In this document: piece after piece, positions 1-10,529 of the stretch
How positions within the stretch are numbered: position 1 is the stretch's first letter
Layout of the letters: every line of letters starts with the position of its first letter
Assembly: GCF_018613875.1 (NCBI RefSeq)
Contig: NZ_JAGGPJ010000027.1
Span: 186,001 to 250,000, forward strand
Direction of reading: 5' to 3'
Length of the DNA stretch: 64,000 bases
Source: Arthrobacter sp. ISL-28
Lineage (GTDB): Bacteria; Actinomycetota; Actinomycetes; Actinomycetales; Micrococcaceae
Position numbers and translations under genes: made by a program
Notes under the pieces: generated by a model
The model's input: only the letters and a program-made list of their open reading frames with translations
The model's database searches: none
What the model was told of the DNA's origin: nothing

Positions 1-145
1 ATCCCCGTATTAGGGAGGACACTTGACCCGTGCATGTTGCGCGTAATGGGAGACGCTGCCGAGGAAGACACGGCCGTTCTGACAGTTGATTCCACCTCTG
101 TGGTGAGTCGAGACATCCTTCACGGATGAGTCGAGTCATCGGTAA

Positions 146-175
146 CACCCCGGTCTTAAGACCGGGGTGTTTTTC
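146..175 (+). terminator. Hairpin terminator inside IS481 remnant A
   Basis: An uninterrupted inverted repeat CACCCCGGTC/GACCGGGGTG (146-169) is followed on the plus strand by a T-rich tract. It overlaps the transposase stop. It should stop rightward transcription entering the element, and an equivalent hairpin occurs in remnant B at 3789-3812. Confidence 0.6.
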
Positions 176-1035
176 TTTGTCTGGGTTGGTAGTCCCGGGT
201 GGGGTCGATGGTGAGTTGCCGGATGATCTCGCCGGTGGCGGTATCGCTGATAGTGACGTCGGTGTCGTGGATGAGCATCAGGACGTGTTTGCCGGCGTGG
301 GCCCGGCCGATGCCGATGTGGCGGAGCCGGCCTGCGTGGCGGAGGGTGAGTTTGCCGAACCGGTCCACGCGGTCGATGCGCTGTCGCCAGTGGTCTCCTT
401 GTCTGGCTCCTGCGGGGGGCGGCTTTGGGTGTTGAGCTGTAGGCGCCGGCTGGGGTGCGCCGGTCCAGGGCGCGGTGGGGGCGTTCGTGGTTGTAGATCT
501 GCCGGAACTTGTCCAGCTGTTCGTTGAGGTCCTCGATGGTATGGGCGCGGGCCTGTCCGATCAGCCAGCGTTTGAGGGTCTGGTGGAACCGTTCGATTTT
601 GCCTTGGGTCTGGGGGTGGTTCGGGGCGCCGTTCTTCTGGGTGATGCCCAGGGCGTGGAGCTGGTGTTCGAAGGCGTTCCGTCCGCCTCTGCCGCCGGCC
701 AGGCGGGTGGTGTAGACCATGCCGTTGTCCGTCAGTGTCGAGGCAGGTAGCCCGTACTCGGCGGCGCAGGCCAGGAACGTGGCCACGACCGCGGTGACGG
801 TGACGGGCCGGTAGGCGGTGCAGGCGAGCAGGTAGCGGGAGTGGTCATCGAGGAAGTTCAGGATCTCGGTGTCGGTGCCGTCGGCCAGGGCCCAGTGGGT
901 GAAGTCGGATTGCCAGGTTTCGTTGGGCTGGTGCGCTTCGAAGCGGTGCAGCGAGGCTTTCGGGCGCTTCTTCGGTTCCGGGGTGATCAGCCCGTTGCTG
1001 TGCAGGATCCGGCGAAAGCGTGTCTCGCGGTGATC
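156..1035 (-). pseudogene. IS481-family transposase, 5'-truncated and frameshifted
   Basis: The readable product has the RNase-H-like DDE core of IS481 transposases: an aspartate in ETWQSDFTHWALADG, a second in TDNGMVYTT, and the glutamate in QGKIERFHQTLKRWL, followed by the family's typical EDLNEQLDKFRQIYN and HRALDRRTPAGAY. The N-terminal helix-turn-helix part is missing; the frame runs out of IS481 sequence at about 1030. A second lesion lies near 400-417, where a run of six Gs sits at the point where the reading frame shifts. The C-terminal segment (LTLRHAGRLRHIGIGRAHAG) is found in another frame at 156-368. Both lesions make it non-functional. Confidence 0.85.
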
Positions 1036-1195
1036 CCTCGCACCCGCACCGCCGGCACCACCGGTCCGGCTCCACGACCCGGCAGGCCAGCACTGTCCGG
1101 TCAGGCTCAAGGCGCTGTCCAACGACTTCGAGGCCCAGCCCGTCGAGACGGGCGAACGTGGTCAGGTCAGGGCAAACGAAGGTAGCGTTAGGCAC
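1027..1195 (-). pseudogene. ISL3-family transposase, N-terminal fragment
   Basis: About 56 residues starting at 1195 look like the N-terminus of ISL3-family transposases: a short lead-in, then VVEPDRW followed by a CxxCG zinc finger (CRRCGCEG). The reading frame then enters IS481 sequence out of phase at about 1030, so the zinc-finger N-terminus is all that is left. The remaining 350 or so residues, including the catalytic core, are gone. Family assignment rests on the CxxC finger context and on a matching terminus at 1301-1317; it is an inference. Confidence 0.6.
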
Positions 1196-1300: not shown

Positions 1301-1317
1301 TCATCTGTGAAGAGCCC
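1301..1317 (-). repeat. Probable ISL3-family terminal inverted repeat
   Basis: On the minus strand this reads GGGCTCTTCACAGATGA, the GG(G)CTCTTC-type start common at ISL3 ends. It sits about 105 bases upstream of the ISL3-like N-terminus at 1195, as expected for the left end of such an element. The other end was not found. An inverted repeat GAGGTCTTCCG/CGGAAGACCTC (1199-1246) lies between the two. Confidence 0.45.
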
Positions 1318-1331
1318 GATAACGTTGCCTT

Positions 1332-3455
1332 ATGACCGGTATCAACCAAACGCTCAGCTACAGGACCCGCGCGAACCACTTCAAGAACGGGATCGCGATG
1401 GGCGGACACCTCTGGCTTCAGGAAGGACCTCAGTCGGAACTGGTTTTCCGTGCGCACGGCATCTTCCAGCGTCGATATGAGCTGCGCCTCATGCTCTCGA
1501 AAGTCAGGTCCTTCGTTGGCGGCACGGGAGGTGCGGTGACGGGCTCGCGCTGGACCCTGACACTGGCGGATGGGACTGTCGAGGAGTTCCTTGTGGCAGG
1601 GCGCACCGGACTCCGAGAGGCGCTGCTGTCCGTCCACTCCAACGCTAGGAACCACTCGATTCCTACGGGCGACCCGTCGGACTTACCTCGCTCTCGCCCC
1701 GACCAACCTGCCAGCCTTCCGGCGGGGACTGCCAACAGCCACGTCCGCCGGGTTGAGACTGCGTCGGCGCAGTCTCAAAAGGATTCCGAACTGCCCTTGA
1801 GAGCCGCGATCACCGCGACCCCGCAACTCCCGGGCTTCAAGCACCTGCGCGTAATCGGATTCTCCACGGCGCTCAAGAGGTTCGCCCAGGCTGTCCCTCG
1901 GAGCGAAGGGGGTTACGGACTCGACGTCGAAGGAAGCGTTATCAGTTGGGAGTCGCGTACTGGCCTCGTCAGCGAGTCGCAGAACGACGTGTACGAACCC
2001 GTGCGCCTCCCTGCGCGTTGCCTGGTGATTCCAGGCAAAGTCGTTCAGATCGCTGGCTCGCGGGACGGGATGCTCGCACTCACCGAGCATGGCGATGTTT
2101 ACGCCTGGGGTGAGGACTACTTCGATGAGATCGGTGAAGATGGGCGAAACGAAGAGTCGCCGCTGCACATCAACGGCCTCGACGGAATCGTCTCGCTGGC
2201 TTCGACCGGTAGCACCCACTTCGCAATTGGCGCGCGGGGAGAGGTTTGGTCCTGGGGATCTAAATACGGTGGGTGTTTGGGTGACGGGTCGGAGGCAAAT
2301 CGCAGTGTGCCCGCTTTGGTTCCGCACTTGAGCGATGTCAGAGAGGTGCGGTGCTCGGAGCAGCGAGACCAGGTCGTTGCTCTGACGACGGGGGGTGCTG
2401 TCCTGGTCTGGGGTTACGGGTACTCGTTTGACGGAGACAAGGTCGCGCGGAGCATTCCGACTGAGTTGATCGATCTCCCGAAAATCCGATCCTTGGGCGA
2501 CGGCGAAACGGCGATCGATGGCGATGGGCACGTCTGGAGGTGGGGCGAAGACCTCGCAGTGAAGCAAGTCCCTGATCTGACAGACATTGTCGCCATCGTC
2601 CACGGAAGCAACTCGATTAGCAATGATGGCACCTGGCATGCTCTCGACCGCGACGGACGCGTCTACGGCTGGGGATGCAACAACTTCGGGCAGATCGGAG
2701 ACGGAACGACAATCGACCGTGACCACCCCGTCCCGGTGACCGGTCTCACCGACGTCGTCGCGCTCGTCACCAACAGCGCCGAGGCCTATGCACTTACATC
2801 AAGCGGGACGGTGTGTGCCTGGGGCGGATTCCCGAGTGAAGGTGTTCTTGAAAATTACGGGAACATGGAGACCATCCACGGTCCCGTGCCACAGCGAATC
2901 CCCCTGCCACACTTCACCGAGTCGCGCATGCAGCGCTGGGCAACCCTGGAGCTAGCAAGCCTCGGCTCCAGCGAGCTGCGTCAGACATTCTTCGACTTCC
3001 GAAATGGACGTACACCCCTCATGCAGTGCGCTGCGGCCGGCCTAGACGACGAAGTTTCCGTCATGCTTGCGCAGAGCGGAGACGTTAACGCCGTTGACAC
3101 TGATGGGGACTCAGCCCTCTTCTATGCCGCGAGCAAAGGTCAGATGCGCAACGTCGAGCTGCTTCTACGGGCAGGAGCAAACCCGCATATTCATCGACCC
3201 GGCGGCAACTCCGCGCTCGCGCAGGCCGCGGGGATGAGTGTGGCGTTCGGCAGCGACGGCGGCGACTACTGGCAGGTGGCCCTGCTGCTCCTCAGGCGTG
3301 GGGCCGATCCCTCGGACATGTATTCACGTGGCATCGCTCCTGCAAGGCACACAGACCGTGGCATGCTGGTGATCCGACCGGAGAATCTATATAGCTACCT
3401 GGCGTACGACGACACGTTTCCGATTCGAGTCGTTCGTGAGTCGTTTGTTGGGTAA
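1332..3455 (+). CDS. GRAM-like/RCC1-propeller/ankyrin repeat fusion protein
   Basis: A 707-residue protein with three parts. Residues 14-100 resemble a bacterial GRAM/PH-like domain (RANHFKNGIAMGGHLWL, then LTLADGTVEEFLVAGR). Seven blades of RCC1 type recur about every 45-50 residues: VISWES (203), VYAWG (256), VWSWG (305), VLVWG (357), VWRWG (401), VYGWG (444), VCAWG (494). Seven is the blade number of the RCC1 propeller. Residues 558-660 hold two clear and one degenerate ankyrin repeat (NGRTPLMQCAAAG; DGDSALFYAASKG). No signal peptide or membrane segment is visible. The first ATG keeps the whole GRAM-like domain, although no Shine-Dalgarno is evident. Composition looks less GC-rich than the rest of the window. 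It lies alone between two IS481 relics. All three domains mediate binding rather than catalysis, so a scaffold or regulatory role is possible; function is unknown. Confidence 0.8.
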   Translation: MTGINQTLSYRTRANHFKNGIAMGGHLWLQEGPQSELVFRAHGIFQRRYELRLMLSKVRSFVGGTGGAVTGSRWTLTLADGTVEEFLVAGRTGLREALLSVHSNARNHSIPTGDPSDLPRSRPDQPASLPAGTANSHVRRVETASAQSQKDSELPLRAAITATPQLPGFKHLRVIGFSTALKRFAQAVPRSEGGYGLDVEGSVISWESRTGLVSESQNDVYEPVRLPARCLVIPGKVVQIAGSRDGMLALTEHGDVYAWGEDYFDEIGEDGRNEESPLHINGLDGIVSLASTGSTHFAIGARGEVWSWGSKYGGCLGDGSEANRSVPALVPHLSDVREVRCSEQRDQVVALTTGGAVLVWGYGYSFDGDKVARSIPTELIDLPKIRSLGDGETAIDGDGHVWRWGEDLAVKQVPDLTDIVAIVHGSNSISNDGTWHALDRDGRVYGWGCNNFGQIGDGTTIDRDHPVPVTGLTDVVALVTNSAEAYALTSSGTVCAWGGFPSEGVLENYGNMETIHGPVPQRIPLPHFTESRMQRWATLELASLGSSELRQTFFDFRNGRTPLMQCAAAGLDDEVSVMLAQSGDVNAVDTDGDSALFYAASKGQMRNVELLLRAGANPHIHRPGGNSALAQAAGMSVAFGSDGGDYWQVALLLLRRGADPSDMYSRGIAPARHTDRGMLVIRPENLYSYLAYDDTFPIRVVRESFVG

Positions 3456-3741
3456 ACGTTCTGTCGAACTTCGGGCTATGGACCTGTATCCCCCCTCCGA
3501 TCCGGTACCGTCGAGGTCACTTCCAAACGGACTCAAAAACGGAGCAGCCAAAGAGCAGATCCGTGCAGTGACATTGCTGGCTAAGCGACCACGATCGGAC
3601 TTCGCCGGACTGGAGAGGCAACCATGGCGGAACCTTACTCAACACGGCCGGTAGAAGGAAGACACTGGGCTACCCACCGGTCTGCAGATGAGGAAGACAC
3701 AGTACTGGAAGACACCGCGTTTCTGACAGTTGATTCCACCG
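3456..3741. other. Intergenic, no gene recognised
   Basis: The sequence lies between the RCC1-ankyrin gene and the left end of IS481 remnant B. A 72-codon open frame (3436-3654) overlaps the end of the upstream gene and has no recognisable content, so I do not call it. The stretch GGAAGACAC...TTCTGACAGTTGATTCCACC at its right end is shared with the flank of remnant A. Confidence 0.5.
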
Positions 3742-3781
3742 TGTGATGTAGCGGGACATCCTTTACGGATGTGTCGGGACA

Positions 3782-4565
3782 TCATTGACACCCCGGTCTT
3801 CGGACCGGGGTGTTTTGTTTTTTCGGTTGGCAGCCTCGGGCGGGGTAGATGGTGAATTCGGCGAGGATTTCGCCGGTGCCGTGCTCGACGGCGGTTATCT
3901 CGTTTCCATGGGCGAGCAGGATGATGCGTTTGTGTTTGTGGGCTCGTCCGATACCCAGATGGCAGAGCCGTCCTGCGTGGCGGAGCGTGACCTTGCCGTC
4001 GGTGTCGACGCGGTCGGTGCGCACGCGCCAGTGTTCGCCTTGGGCGGTGGTGGGGCTGCTTTGGGCGTTGCCGTGTAGCCCTCGGCAGGGGTGCGCCGGT
4101 TCAGAGCCCGGTGGGGGCGTTCGTGGGTTGTAGATCTGCCGGAACTTGTCCAGCTGTTCGTTGAGATCTTCCAGCGTGTGTCGGGGTGTCCGTGCAGTCA
4201 TTTCTTCAGGTTCTGATGGAAGCGTTCGATTTTGCCCTGGGTTTGCGGGTGCCCGGGGTGGCCGTTCTTCTGCGTGATGCCCAGGGCCGAAGGTGGGAGG
4301 CGATGGTCTCAGCGCCGGCGTCCAATCCTTTTCGGGTGAGTTCGAGTCGCAGTGCCAGGATCCTGTCCCTGACTGGCGCCGGGGTGGTGCGGGGCTCGTG
4401 CCCGGACGTCTGGAGCGGGATGCCCAGGCCGGCTTCACCCGCCTGGGCATGGCGCCGGAGGAGTTCGTGGACCCATTGCCGGCTGACTCCGTACCGGCGG
4501 GCAGCCTCTGATTTGGACATTCTGCCCTCGAGTACAGCCAGGACGATGACCTTGTTCTTCGACAT
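3782..4565 (-). pseudogene. IS481-family transposase, internally deleted and frameshifted
   Basis: The start at 4565 gives MSKNKVIVLAVLEGRMSKSEAARRYGVSRQWVHELLRR, the helix-turn-helix N-terminus of IS481 transposases. The reading then jumps from AETIASHL straight to GITQKNGHPGHPQTQGKIERFHQ, so the central block holding the first two catalytic aspartates is missing. A further frame change follows: the C-terminal part (EDLNEQLDKFRQIYN, KVTLRHAGRLCHLGIGRAH) continues in a different frame to the stop at 3782. The remaining parts are similar to remnant A, so the two belong to closely related elements. Confidence 0.85.
3789..3822 (+). terminator. Hairpin terminator inside IS481 remnant B
   Basis: The inverted repeat CACCCCGGTC/GACCGGGGTG (3789-3812) has a TTCG loop and is followed on the plus strand by GTTTTGTTTTTT. 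It corresponds to the hairpin of remnant A and would block readthrough from the upstream RCC1-ankyrin gene into the element. Confidence 0.65.
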
Positions 4566-4618
4566 GGCCCAGCCCATCAGGCTAAGTGTCGTCTGTGTCC
4601 GCGACATGCCGAGACCGT

Positions 4619-4711
4619 CAACGATGTCCCGCCACAGCAGTCAACTATCACCTGTCAACGATGTCCCGCCACAGCAGTCAACTATCACCTGTCAACGATG
4701 TCCCGCCACAG
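4619..4711. repeat. 37-base tandem repeat at IS481 right end (2.5 copies)
   Basis: The unit starts CAACGATGTCCCGCCACAGC and is 37 bases long. Copies lie at 4619-4655, 4656-4692 and, partial, 4693-4711, with a further diverged box AACGATGTCCTG just after it. Each unit contains the rightward IS481 terminal box, so the element's right end has been tandemly duplicated. Confidence 0.85.
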
Positions 4712-4758
4712 GTGCAAACGATGTCCTGAAATCACACACCCCCATCTCCACCGTTTCA

Positions 4759-4917: not shown

Positions 4918-5901
4918 ATGTCCACGGCACCTGCAACTGCATCAGGTCCCGACAGGGACGACGACGCCCTGGATTCATACTCCGAGACGGTCATCAGGGT
5001 GGCCAGGACCGTCACGCCGCACGTCGCAGCCATCGAAATGACCGGTAACCGACGCAACGGAAGGTTCCGGGTGGGAGCCGGCTCCGCGGTGCTCTTTACC
5101 GAGGACGGATTCCTCCTGACTAATTCGCACGTCGTGGCGGGTACGCAGAAAGGCCGCGCAGTCTTTGCCGACGGCTCGGCGACGGACATTGAGCTGGTGG
5201 GGGCGGACCCCCTGTCAGATCTCGCAGTGGTCCGGGGCCGCTCGCCCCGCGTAGCCCCGGCGGAATTCGGTGATGCGGAATCCCTCCGCGTGGGCCAGCT
5301 GGTCATCGCGGTGGGCAATCCTCTCGGCCTCTCCGGCTCAGTGACGGCGGGAGTGGTAAGCGGTTTGGGCCGTGCCATCCCCGTCTGGGCCGGGCGTAAC
5401 CGCCGGGTCATCGAGGATGTCATCCAGACAGACGCTGCGTTGAATGCGGGCAGTTCGGGCGGCGCCCTCGCCGATGCCCGCAGCCGCATCATCGGAATCA
5501 ATACTGCCGTCGCCGGCGCCGGGTTGGGACTGGCCGTGCCGATCAACAAGACCACCCGACGGATCATCTCCGCGCTCCTGGCTGACGGTCGCGTCCGGCG
5601 CGCCTATCTGGGCCTAGTCAGCACCCCCATCCGGCTCGGCCCCAGCATGGTAGTCCGCACCGGCCAGCGCAATGGCCTGCGCGTGGTGGAAGTTCTCGCC
5701 GGGTCCCCTGCCGAAAAGGCAGGCGTGCAGGTGGGCGACGTCCTGCTGCGGGCGGGGTCGCGGCCGGTGAGCAATGCCGAAAGCCTGCAAAAGCTGCTCT
5801 TTGCCGATGCCATCGGCGTCCCCATGAGCATTGTGGTGCTGCGTGACGGCCACGAGCTCGAGATTGCTGCCGTACCAGCGGAAATGGCGGACACTGGCTA
5901 A
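4918..5901 (+). CDS. HtrA-like trypsin-type serine protease with PDZ domain
   Basis: A 327-residue S1C (HtrA/DegP-like) protease. The catalytic triad is visible: His71 in LTNSHVV, Asp101 in LSDLAVV and Ser180 in NAGSSGGAL. A single PDZ domain follows (about 228-320; YLGL, then GSPAEKAGVQVGDVLL), which in this family binds exposed C-termini and regulates activity. Unlike DegP and most actinobacterial HtrA proteins it has no signal peptide and no membrane anchor, so a cytoplasmic quality-control role is inferred. The ATG at 4918 has a GGGAGGCGG ribosome site at good spacing. It appears monocistronic, closed by the hairpin at 5937-5986. Confidence 0.9.
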   Translation: MSTAPATASGPDRDDDALDSYSETVIRVARTVTPHVAAIEMTGNRRNGRFRVGAGSAVLFTEDGFLLTNSHVVAGTQKGRAVFADGSATDIELVGADPLSDLAVVRGRSPRVAPAEFGDAESLRVGQLVIAVGNPLGLSGSVTAGVVSGLGRAIPVWAGRNRRVIEDVIQTDAALNAGSSGGALADARSRIIGINTAVAGAGLGLAVPINKTTRRIISALLADGRVRRAYLGLVSTPIRLGPSMVVRTGQRNGLRVVEVLAGSPAEKAGVQVGDVLLRAGSRPVSNAESLQKLLFADAIGVPMSIVVLRDGHELEIAAVPAEMADTG

Positions 5902-9119: not shown

Positions 9120-10529
9120 TCAGTCCAGGGCGCAGGGTGCTGCCCCTGCTGTGCCGGGCGTGTTGGGTGCCCAGTGCGGGTAGCTGCGGGTGTCGTTGGC
9201 GGGAACCCAGCGGCCCGAGTCCACCACGTAGTCCCAGCCGAGGCCGCTGCCGCGCAAATCCTCGATGCCGGCGAGGAGGCGCTGGGCGTCCTCAAGCCGG
9301 GATCCGAGGCCAAAGCTCGCGCGCAGGGAGCCCGAGGGCAGGCCCAGGCGCTTCAGGAGCGGGTGGGCGCAGAAGCGGCCGTCACGCAGTCCGACACCAT
9401 GCTCAGCGGACAGGTAGGCAGCCACCAGGCCGGCGTCGTAGCCTTCCACCGAGAAGTTCACCACACCGATGGTGTCGGTATCCGGGTCGGTGTCCGAGAA
9501 GATCTGGTGCACCGTGACACCCTCGATCCTCTGCAGCCCCTCGACGAGGAACGACCGGATGGCGGTCTCATGCGCGTGCCAGTTCGCCTGGTCCAGGGCA
9601 GCGATCACCTGGGTTGCACGGGCGAGGGTGGCGGCGCCCAGGACGTTGGGTGAGCCGCCTTCATGGCGGGCAGGGCCGGTGGTCCAGCTGACGCCGTCGA
9701 GGCGGGCTTCGCTGACTGCGCCACCACCGGCGAGGTGCGGGGTGCCGGCGTCGAGCCAATCGGGGCGTCCTACCAGGACGCCGGAGCCGAACGGTGCGTA
9801 GAGCTTGTGACCGGAAAAGGCGAGGTAGTCGACGTCGTCCGCGGCGATGTCGATCCGGCGGTGCGGCGCGAGCTGTGCCGCATCCACCACAATCCGGGCA
9901 CCGAATTCGTGCGCCAGCGCGGCGAGCCGGCGGATCGGCAGGATTTCGCCGGTGACGTTGGACGCGCCGGTCACGGCGAGGAGGCTGACGTCGCCGTTCT
10001 CGAGCTCCGCGCGGAGGCTGGCCACCGTTGCCTCAAGGGTGTCTGATGCCACGATGCTCCGGTGCGGCACTCCCTGCCACGGCAGCAGGTTGGCGTGGTG
10101 TTCGATGTCGAGATACAGGACTTCGCCCGTGTGCCGCTGGTCCTCAACGGGAAGGCAGCCCGCCAGCAGGTTGAGGGAATCAGTGGTGTTGCGGGTGAAG
10201 ATCACGGAGTCGTCCGGGCGGCCTCCGACAAATTCGCGGACGATGTTCCGGGCATTTTCATAGACCGACGTGCTGATCTGAGAGGCGTAGCCCGCGCCGC
10301 GGTGCACACTGGCGTAGAACGGCAGGATCTCGTTCAGGTACGCCGAAACGACGGACAGCGCAGGGGCCGAGGCGCCATAGTCGAGGTTGGCGTAGCGCAC
10401 GTGGCCGCCCTGGATCAGCGGAGCCTGGATCTCGGCGCCGGTAACTGCTGCCAGCGGCCGTCCGGCGGCGGCGAAGCGATCGTCGAGCAGGCCGGCGCCG
10501 GTGTTGGAGGAGAAGGTTGCAGTAGTCAT
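9120..10529 (-). CDS. SufS-like class V aminotransferase (cysteine desulfurase-related)
   Basis: A 469-residue fold-type I PLP enzyme. The PLP lysine is in FSGHKLYAPFGSG, the ring-stacking His in DIEHHANLLPW, the cofactor Asp in VVDAAQLAPH, and a Cys in RFCAHPLL aligns with the catalytic Cys of SufS/CsdA-type desulfurases. The ATG at 10529 follows a GCGAGG-type site and keeps the family N-terminus (VRYANLDYGASAPA). The leader contains a SAM-IV-type riboswitch, so the enzyme is tied to sulfur amino acid status. It is monocistronic here, without other suf genes. Its in vivo substrate is inferred to be a sulfur-containing amino acid, not shown. Confidence 0.85.
   Translation of the reverse strand: MTTATFSSNTGAGLLDDRFAAAGRPLAAVTGAEIQAPLIQGGHVRYANLDYGASAPALSVVSAYLNEILPFYASVHRGAGYASQISTSVYENARNIVREFVGGRPDDSVIFTRNTTDSLNLLAGCLPVEDQRHTGEVLYLDIEHHANLLPWQGVPHRSIVASDTLEATVASLRAELENGDVSLLAVTGASNVTGEILPIRRLAALAHEFGARIVVDAAQLAPHRRIDIAADDVDYLAFSGHKLYAPFGSGVLVGRPDWLDAGTPHLAGGGAVSEARLDGVSWTTGPARHEGGSPNVLGAATLARATQVIAALDQANWHAHETAIRSFLVEGLQRIEGVTVHQIFSDTDPDTDTIGVVNFSVEGYDAGLVAAYLSAEHGVGLRDGRFCAHPLLKRLGLPSGSLRASFGLGSRLEDAQRLLAGIEDLRGSGLGWDYVVDSGRWVPANDTRSYPHWAPNTPGTAGAAPCALD

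Follow-up and report, generated by a model that had tools for sequence, protein, structure and literature searches.

What does a single bacterial gene that joins an RCC1-type propeller to a stack of ankyrin repeats do for the genome that carries it, and how did it come to stand between two damaged insertion sequences? The question is raised by a short piece of the window, by which we mean the whole stretch of 64,000 nucleotides that was analysed, where an intact open reading frame of 707 codons runs from ATG to stop on the forward strand. A sequence-only reading of this piece had described the product as a GRAM/PH-like N-terminus, seven RCC1-type blades and a C-terminal ankyrin block, and the gene as an acquired one. 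The gene and the parts of its product are delimited here as follows.

1332..3455, + strand: RCC1-propeller/ankyrin gene, 707 aa, with an orthologue in Leucobacter edaphi at 78 % identity
1332..1652, + strand: N-terminal module, residues 1-107, with six predicted strands and a C-terminal helix; no Pfam match
1653..1853, + strand: linker, residues 108-174, of low model confidence (pLDDT about 28-37) and faster-evolving
1854..2837, + strand: RCC1-type propeller, residues 175-502, with seven blade marks; from Pfam, AlphaFold model, superposition and sequence marks
2961..3368, + strand: ankyrin stack, residues 544-679; from Pfam, AlphaFold model and superposition

The two large parts are recognised directly in the 707-aa product. 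Pfam matches to RCC1 (PF00415, 2.8e-24) and to Ank_2 (PF12796, 8.6e-16) lie above their cut-offs, and the RCC1 and ankyrin matches are far beyond chance; WD40_RLD (PF25390) matched at 9.6e-38 with 130.9 bits, which is below its cut-off of 150. The count of seven blade marks spaced 43-53 residues apart was reproduced, with marks at W206, W259, W308, W360, W404, W447 and W497 and spacings of 53, 49, 52, 44, 43 and 50 residues; the first mark (W206) is without the usual WG. The GRAM/PH-like assignment of the N-terminus found no backing at this level. Residues 1-107 gave zero Pfam matches at E<=1 and a single chance-level row (E 0.56) in a profile search of PDB sequences. The product had also been said to hold no enzyme and no membrane segment, and this agrees with our results: no enzyme or catalytic domain and no DNA-binding module was recognised in the 707 residues, the best 19-residue mean hydropathy is 1.24, with no segment of membrane strength, and no signal peptide or other export signal is evident by eye. 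The native start of the gene could be upstream of the annotated ATG, since about 16-20 bp 5' of the ATG are kept in both known copies (window 1312-1331; L003:9981-10000 in the L. edaphi locus) and the L. edaphi frame is open upstream to a GTG at 9971; the frame in the window is not.

We predicted the structure of the product twice with AlphaFold. The first job had two alignment rows and returned a poor model (mean pLDDT 44), the fold search of which was set aside. The second had 20 rows, namely the gene and its orthologue from L. edaphi together with 16 RCC1 and 2 ankyrin rows of viral origin. The viral loci were used only as alignment rows (16 of 43 RCC1 loci and both ankyrin loci were taken in), and some of these rows have stray fragments of short length aligned to the N-terminal or ankyrin part. 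The 20-row model has a mean pLDDT of 65.7 and a pTM of 0.49. Its ankyrin part (residues 561-670) reaches pLDDT 75-96 and residues 231-500 show 10-residue means of 57-94, while blade 1 (residues 191-230) stands at only 36-68. The N-terminal part is at 50-73 over residues 21-90 and lower outside. There the model places strands at 26-30, 36-42, 48-54, 58-63, 73-78 and 83-87 and a helix at 94-104, at moderate to low confidence; these predicted strands and helix suit a GRAM/PH-like module without proving one. The model supports an RCC1-type propeller. The seven-blade arrangement is not contradicted by the prediction, although blade 1 is of low confidence. In the C-terminal part of the model an ankyrin fold is present, with residues 558-659 superposing on the designed three-repeat ankyrin 1n0q (Z 18.1, 93 aligned, rmsd 0.9), and the ankyrin block of the sequence-only reading thus stands both as a Pfam family and as a predicted fold.

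The closest fold of the modelled propeller is the RCC1-like domain (RLD) of HERC2, on which residues 178-492 superpose with Z 28.2 (294 aligned, rmsd 3.2; VIA-align 2); UVR8, HERC1, RCC2 and RCC1 are the next fold matches by the same method. The superpositions on the HERC2 RLD, UVR8 and RCC1, which have seven blades, span Z 24.7-28.2 over about 290 residues. The likeness is that of the RCC1-type propeller fold. Identity to these proteins is 22-29 %, and the present protein differs from them in being bacterial and in that its propeller shares one chain with an ankyrin stack and with an orphan module at the N-terminus. A viral structure library also returned RCC1 proteins of phages and giant viruses as matches, many of the rows with large rmsd. 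The eukaryotic origin of the top folds, HERC2 and UVR8, would be in keeping with a protein that acts in bacteria-grazing protozoa, RCC1 and ankyrin modules being typical of eukaryotic-like effectors. Excerpts of two papers describe RCC1-repeat effectors in Legionella (PMC7157520, PMC3777869), and of five weak NCBIfam matches given by the ankyrin stretch, four are to ankyrin effectors of Legionella. These matches are, however, generic: they score 12-26 bits where the cut-offs are 500-800, and the remaining one is to MzaA, which is associated with anti-phage activity. Many other bacterial proteins, moreover, have RCC1 repeats, as our congener and plasmid searches found, no export signal is seen by eye, and no secretion genes were recognised next to the gene. 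We consider a eukaryote-directed role quite unlikely. A single chain with both modules is known from eukaryotes: IBTK, in the excerpts consulted, combines ankyrin, BTB and RCC1 (PMC5133848, PMC4447969). It is alike in uniting ankyrin and RCC1 and unlike in being eukaryotic and having BTB domains, and the likeness carries no claim of orthology.

A bacterial propeller lies further down the fold matches. The beta-lactamase inhibitor 3qi0, which we take to be BLIP-II, a bacterial RCC1-like beta-lactamase inhibitor, superposes on model residues 183-500 with Z 17.3 (224 aligned, rmsd 3.2), which suggests a similar bacterial RCC1-type propeller fold. BLIP-II is secreted, consists of a propeller alone and acts purely through binding. 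By analogy, our protein might be an immunity protein or inhibitor, of which the propeller or ankyrin surface would block one enzyme, as BLIP-II does with beta-lactamases or Imm-Ank proteins with polymorphic toxins. Unlike BLIP-II, which is secreted, the present protein is three-part and shows no evident signal peptide, and 707 aa is big for an immunity protein. Excerpts of one paper (PMC3482391) list ankyrin repeats among the immunity classes of polymorphic-toxin systems, where they serve Imm-Ank as a binding device; the product shares that device and differs in having an extra propeller. No toxin gene was recognised beside either copy of our gene among the subset of neighbouring ORFs scanned. 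Immunity or inhibition of this kind appears unlikely.

Where the gene came from is recorded in the sequence around it, of which the following features are needed.

63..1122, - strand: damaged IS481-type copy, upstream of the gene and inside the island, matching profile positions 99-283 of 284 only
3707..4711, - strand: IS481-type remnant, downstream of the gene and inside the island, with a short direct repeat at its end; its matching ORF covers positions 5-89
4738..4753, + strand: right end of the island (attR), a copy of the tmRNA 3' end with 14 shared bases at 4739-4752; host sequence after it
4918..5901, + strand: host trypsin/PDZ gene, which comes after the tmRNA gene in relatives whose junction is uninterrupted

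The gene had been taken for the only intact one between two decayed IS481 elements. Both flanking IS481-type copies are indeed damaged, and they are 76-77 % alike in DNA. The pair is nonetheless not the unit of acquisition, and a 519-aa SEC-C protein and a 186-aa ORF are cargo of the same island. An IS481-bounded transposon was ruled out, as the island ends at the tmRNA copy that lies outside both IS481 copies. Two minor observations concern these flanks: at the end of the second remnant (window 4614-4711) a direct repeat of 61-62 bp occurs twice, the copies overlapping at an offset of 36 bp, and on the 5' side of the gene a short ORF (window 845-1195, - strand) resembles by eye the start of an ISL3-family transposase, with no NCBIfam match. 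The gene had also been seen as less GC-rich than its flanks. This is so on one side, where its 61.8 % compares with 65.6 +/- 1.9 % in 286 overlapping stretches of the same length right of the island, 0.3 % of which are as low. Host DNA left of the island is at 61.3 %, and low GC is therefore a weak argument for acquisition.

In the part of the contig left of the window lies the tmRNA gene (L062:9694-10062), and 3' of it stand three tandem ORFs that overlap and encode 497, 568 and 661 aa. A tyrosine integrase is encoded by the first (PHROGs 2.1e-20, with NCBIfam and Pfam matches below cut-off). The second had no family match in PHROGs, NCBIfam or Pfam, and the third a marginal PHROGs match only (0.012). 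After this trio come the 186-aa ORF, the SEC-C protein, the damaged IS481 copy, our gene and the second IS481 remnant, in that order. The SEC-C protein (L062:16214-17773, - strand) has its SEC-C motif at the N-terminus and only generic SEC-C-type matches; a 122-aa ORF after the trio has no Pfam match and overlaps an ORF on the opposite strand. The 3' end of the tmRNA recurs at window 4739-4752 with 14 shared bases. The motif on its own is not rare, two being found in the window against 1.43 expected by chance, and the right end is placed by the alignment of the flank: beyond 4752 the sequence matches the tmRNA-trypsin/PDZ junction of two relatives (G036 and G028). At that junction both relatives are without the island, which, noted at L062:9694-15314 and on to window 4753, measures about 12,690 bp. 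A scan of the short flanks of eight trypsin-gene loci found a tmRNA in four, all relatives, and none in the other four, the source genome among them. The unit acquired is this island of about 12.7 kb in a tmRNA gene, and the RCC1/ankyrin gene is not its sole cargo.

The gene is rare and not a core gene of the genus; a fixed core gene would have spoken against the sequence-only reading. This follows from the distribution of full-length matches, which were found in one of 198 congeners and one of 395 genomes of the family sample, in both cases the source genome itself, in one of the 398 genomes sampled from a further family within the order, namely L. edaphi, and in none of the matching plasmid and phage records. 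The samples partly overlap, so the counts are not additive, and per genome only the best first-look candidates were scored (up to five in congeners, two in the family and two in the other family). The best match in the other 197 congeners is a partial RCC1 match (E 2e-19), and the source genome has one further weak ankyrin match (29 %). A search for the same architecture elsewhere yielded one relative, the 78 % identical L. edaphi protein among other neighbours, and none in those 197 congeners. The L. edaphi locus was also obtained from a GTDB contig scan (10 pattern matches, 1 confirmed), and its protein is letter for letter that of the 398-genome sample; the scan depends on exact matches to short peptides, and distant relatives would escape it. 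No close relative was seen in viral contigs (27 pattern matches, 0 confirmed). Among the best 30 of 52 plasmid rows and the 7 phage rows, none had one place covering more than 80 % of the query. The best plasmid row, from Deinococcus with 69 % covered, was considered as the same architecture and rejected, being an RCC1-repeat protein with no ankyrin part by eye. Searches with the N-terminal module matched 3 of 297 genomes of the order sample and, with a two-row profile, 2 of 396 of the phylum sample, the source genome included in each. The three other matches were taken for chance, as they overlap ORFs that by eye resemble PEP synthase, a periplasmic binding protein and an ATP synthase region.

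When the 5.1 kb L. edaphi locus was compared with the first 8 kb of the window and with L062, DNA similarity was confined to window 1316-3438 (82.8 %), beginning 16 bp before the ATG and ending 14 bases before the stop codon; the comparison spans 1.5 kb either side of the copy, with the sequence further out compared by eye. The L. edaphi copy is followed on its 3' side by an HNH_5 protein encoded on the opposite strand and by a TetR-domain ORF; also on this side, 2.2 kb from the gene, is the ORF of a large serine recombinase, which extends into tRNA-Ala. The HNH_5-domain protein (L003:12147-13055, - strand) ends about 25 bp from the end of the orthologue, and none such was recognised in the window. 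Among the best 20 of 26 repeat families at this locus, no att repeats bounding an element were recognised. That a different family carries a copy as well, with new neighbours and with similarity limited to the gene, argues for horizontal movement, and the earlier view of an acquired accessory gene is upheld by this copy and by the island at the tmRNA gene.

Comparison of the two copies gives a dN/dS of 0.249, which marks a real gene; by part it is 0.56 in the linker (residues 108-168) and 0.137 over the ankyrin residues 531-640. The two genomes have a dS of 0.50 in this gene and of 1.07 in gyrB, which served as the one control gene; differing four-fold sites number 105 of 329 in the former and 152 of 262 in the latter. 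By these lower values the common ancestor of the two copies is younger than that of the genomes, which is what transfer would produce, and both copies have been kept functional. The same figures bear on the view that the gene is an ordinary passenger, drifting between islands with no selectable role. Its rarity and its position between damaged insertion sequences would fit a passenger, but the frame is open in both copies and dN/dS is 0.25 overall and 0.14 over the ankyrin part, which makes this reading highly improbable. A further view is that the gene serves the islands rather than the host, for instance by controlling recombination or by excluding a second element, since it shares an island with the recombinase trio here and neighbours the serine recombinase at tRNA-Ala in L. 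edaphi. The recombinases at the two loci are, however, of different types, no DNA-binding module was recognised, and a relative of the third trio ORF occurs in one of 195 other congeners, a genome with no full-length match to our gene. We regard a role in element biology as very unlikely.

Taken as a whole, the evidence makes it rather probable that the gene is horizontally moving accessory cargo encoding a soluble binding protein, perhaps with a role in conflict. In the source genome it rides in the island of about 12.7 kb at the tmRNA 3' end, behind the integrase-led trio. Its product would most likely be a soluble, presumably cytoplasmic binding protein, in which the propeller and the ankyrin stack offer two protein-binding surfaces and a flexible linker ties both to the small, beta-rich N-terminal module. 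Because no enzyme or catalytic domain was recognised and no membrane segment is evident, its probable mode of action is to occupy or bridge a target protein. The different neighbours in the two families suggest that no dedicated partner gene is needed; the support for such autonomy comes from the L. edaphi locus, since the source island also carries the SEC-C protein and the 186-aa ORF. Rare, moving, selected and island-borne genes are often conflict genes. As our gene has these properties, our leading guess, held tentatively, is a defence or immunity role, by which the gene would pay its way as cargo; the target would then most likely be a component of a phage, of a competing mobile element or of the toxin of a competitor. 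More speculative still is the specific form of a single-gene, effector-less clamp, which would bind an invader protein via its two surfaces, neutralise it, and be passed between actinobacteria by integrative elements that sit at RNA genes. PADLOC (2023) returned only the generic PDC-M72A and Ankyrin matches, over the ankyrin stretch. To our knowledge, the functions of bacterial RCC1 propellers are mostly unknown. If protective, the gene would add a binding-only defence or immunity protein and provide a test case for such propellers in bacteria. RCC1 and ankyrin modules are known, as is their union in IBTK; within the excerpts and collections searched, the bacterial combination as mobile cargo was not found, nor was an RCC1-ankyrin fusion with an orphan N-terminal domain in plasmid and phage collections or in the literature on bacterial RCC1 and on RCC1 repeats in anti-phage defence, nor any literature on RCC1 combined with a GRAM domain and ankyrin.

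The island as a whole is GInt-like by its sequence organisation. GInt islands, in the excerpts consulted, carry three integrases, ginD (a small helix-loop-helix protein encoded after the integrases) and variable cargo (PMC5385486). Likenesses to that description are a tandem trio of ORFs at one end, the first of them an integrase, the short direct repeats and an attL over a gene end (PMC5385486). The variable cargo is matched as well, by the different genes that stand behind a related trio in another congener (G118). Differences are that the second and third trio ORFs are not clearly recognised as integrases, that ginD was not recognised, the 122-aa ORF behind the trio being free of Pfam matches, and that the target is here the tmRNA gene, tmRNA and ssrA having 0 occurrences in the main text of PMC5385486. 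The G118 trio was found through its third ORF (42 % identity), in the one genome other than the source with such a relative among the 196 congener genomes searched, source included, and it too stands at the tmRNA gene. Behind the trio, in the locus L080:4562-17932, come a metallophosphatase gene, a gene of which the 1358-aa product is a possible STAND NTPase, and one for a protein with a helicase-associated domain. Some STAND NTPases are known as anti-phage sensors. The match of this one to nSTAND_NTPase5 (7.4e-7, 29.5 bits) is below the curated cut-off of 34, and PADLOC gave no match for it; the G118 locus is a possible defence island. We flag tmRNA-gene islands with a recombinase trio as a place in which to seek new cargo in the genus. 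The metallophosphatase of G118 gave a weak PADLOC match to PDC-S10 (9e-5).
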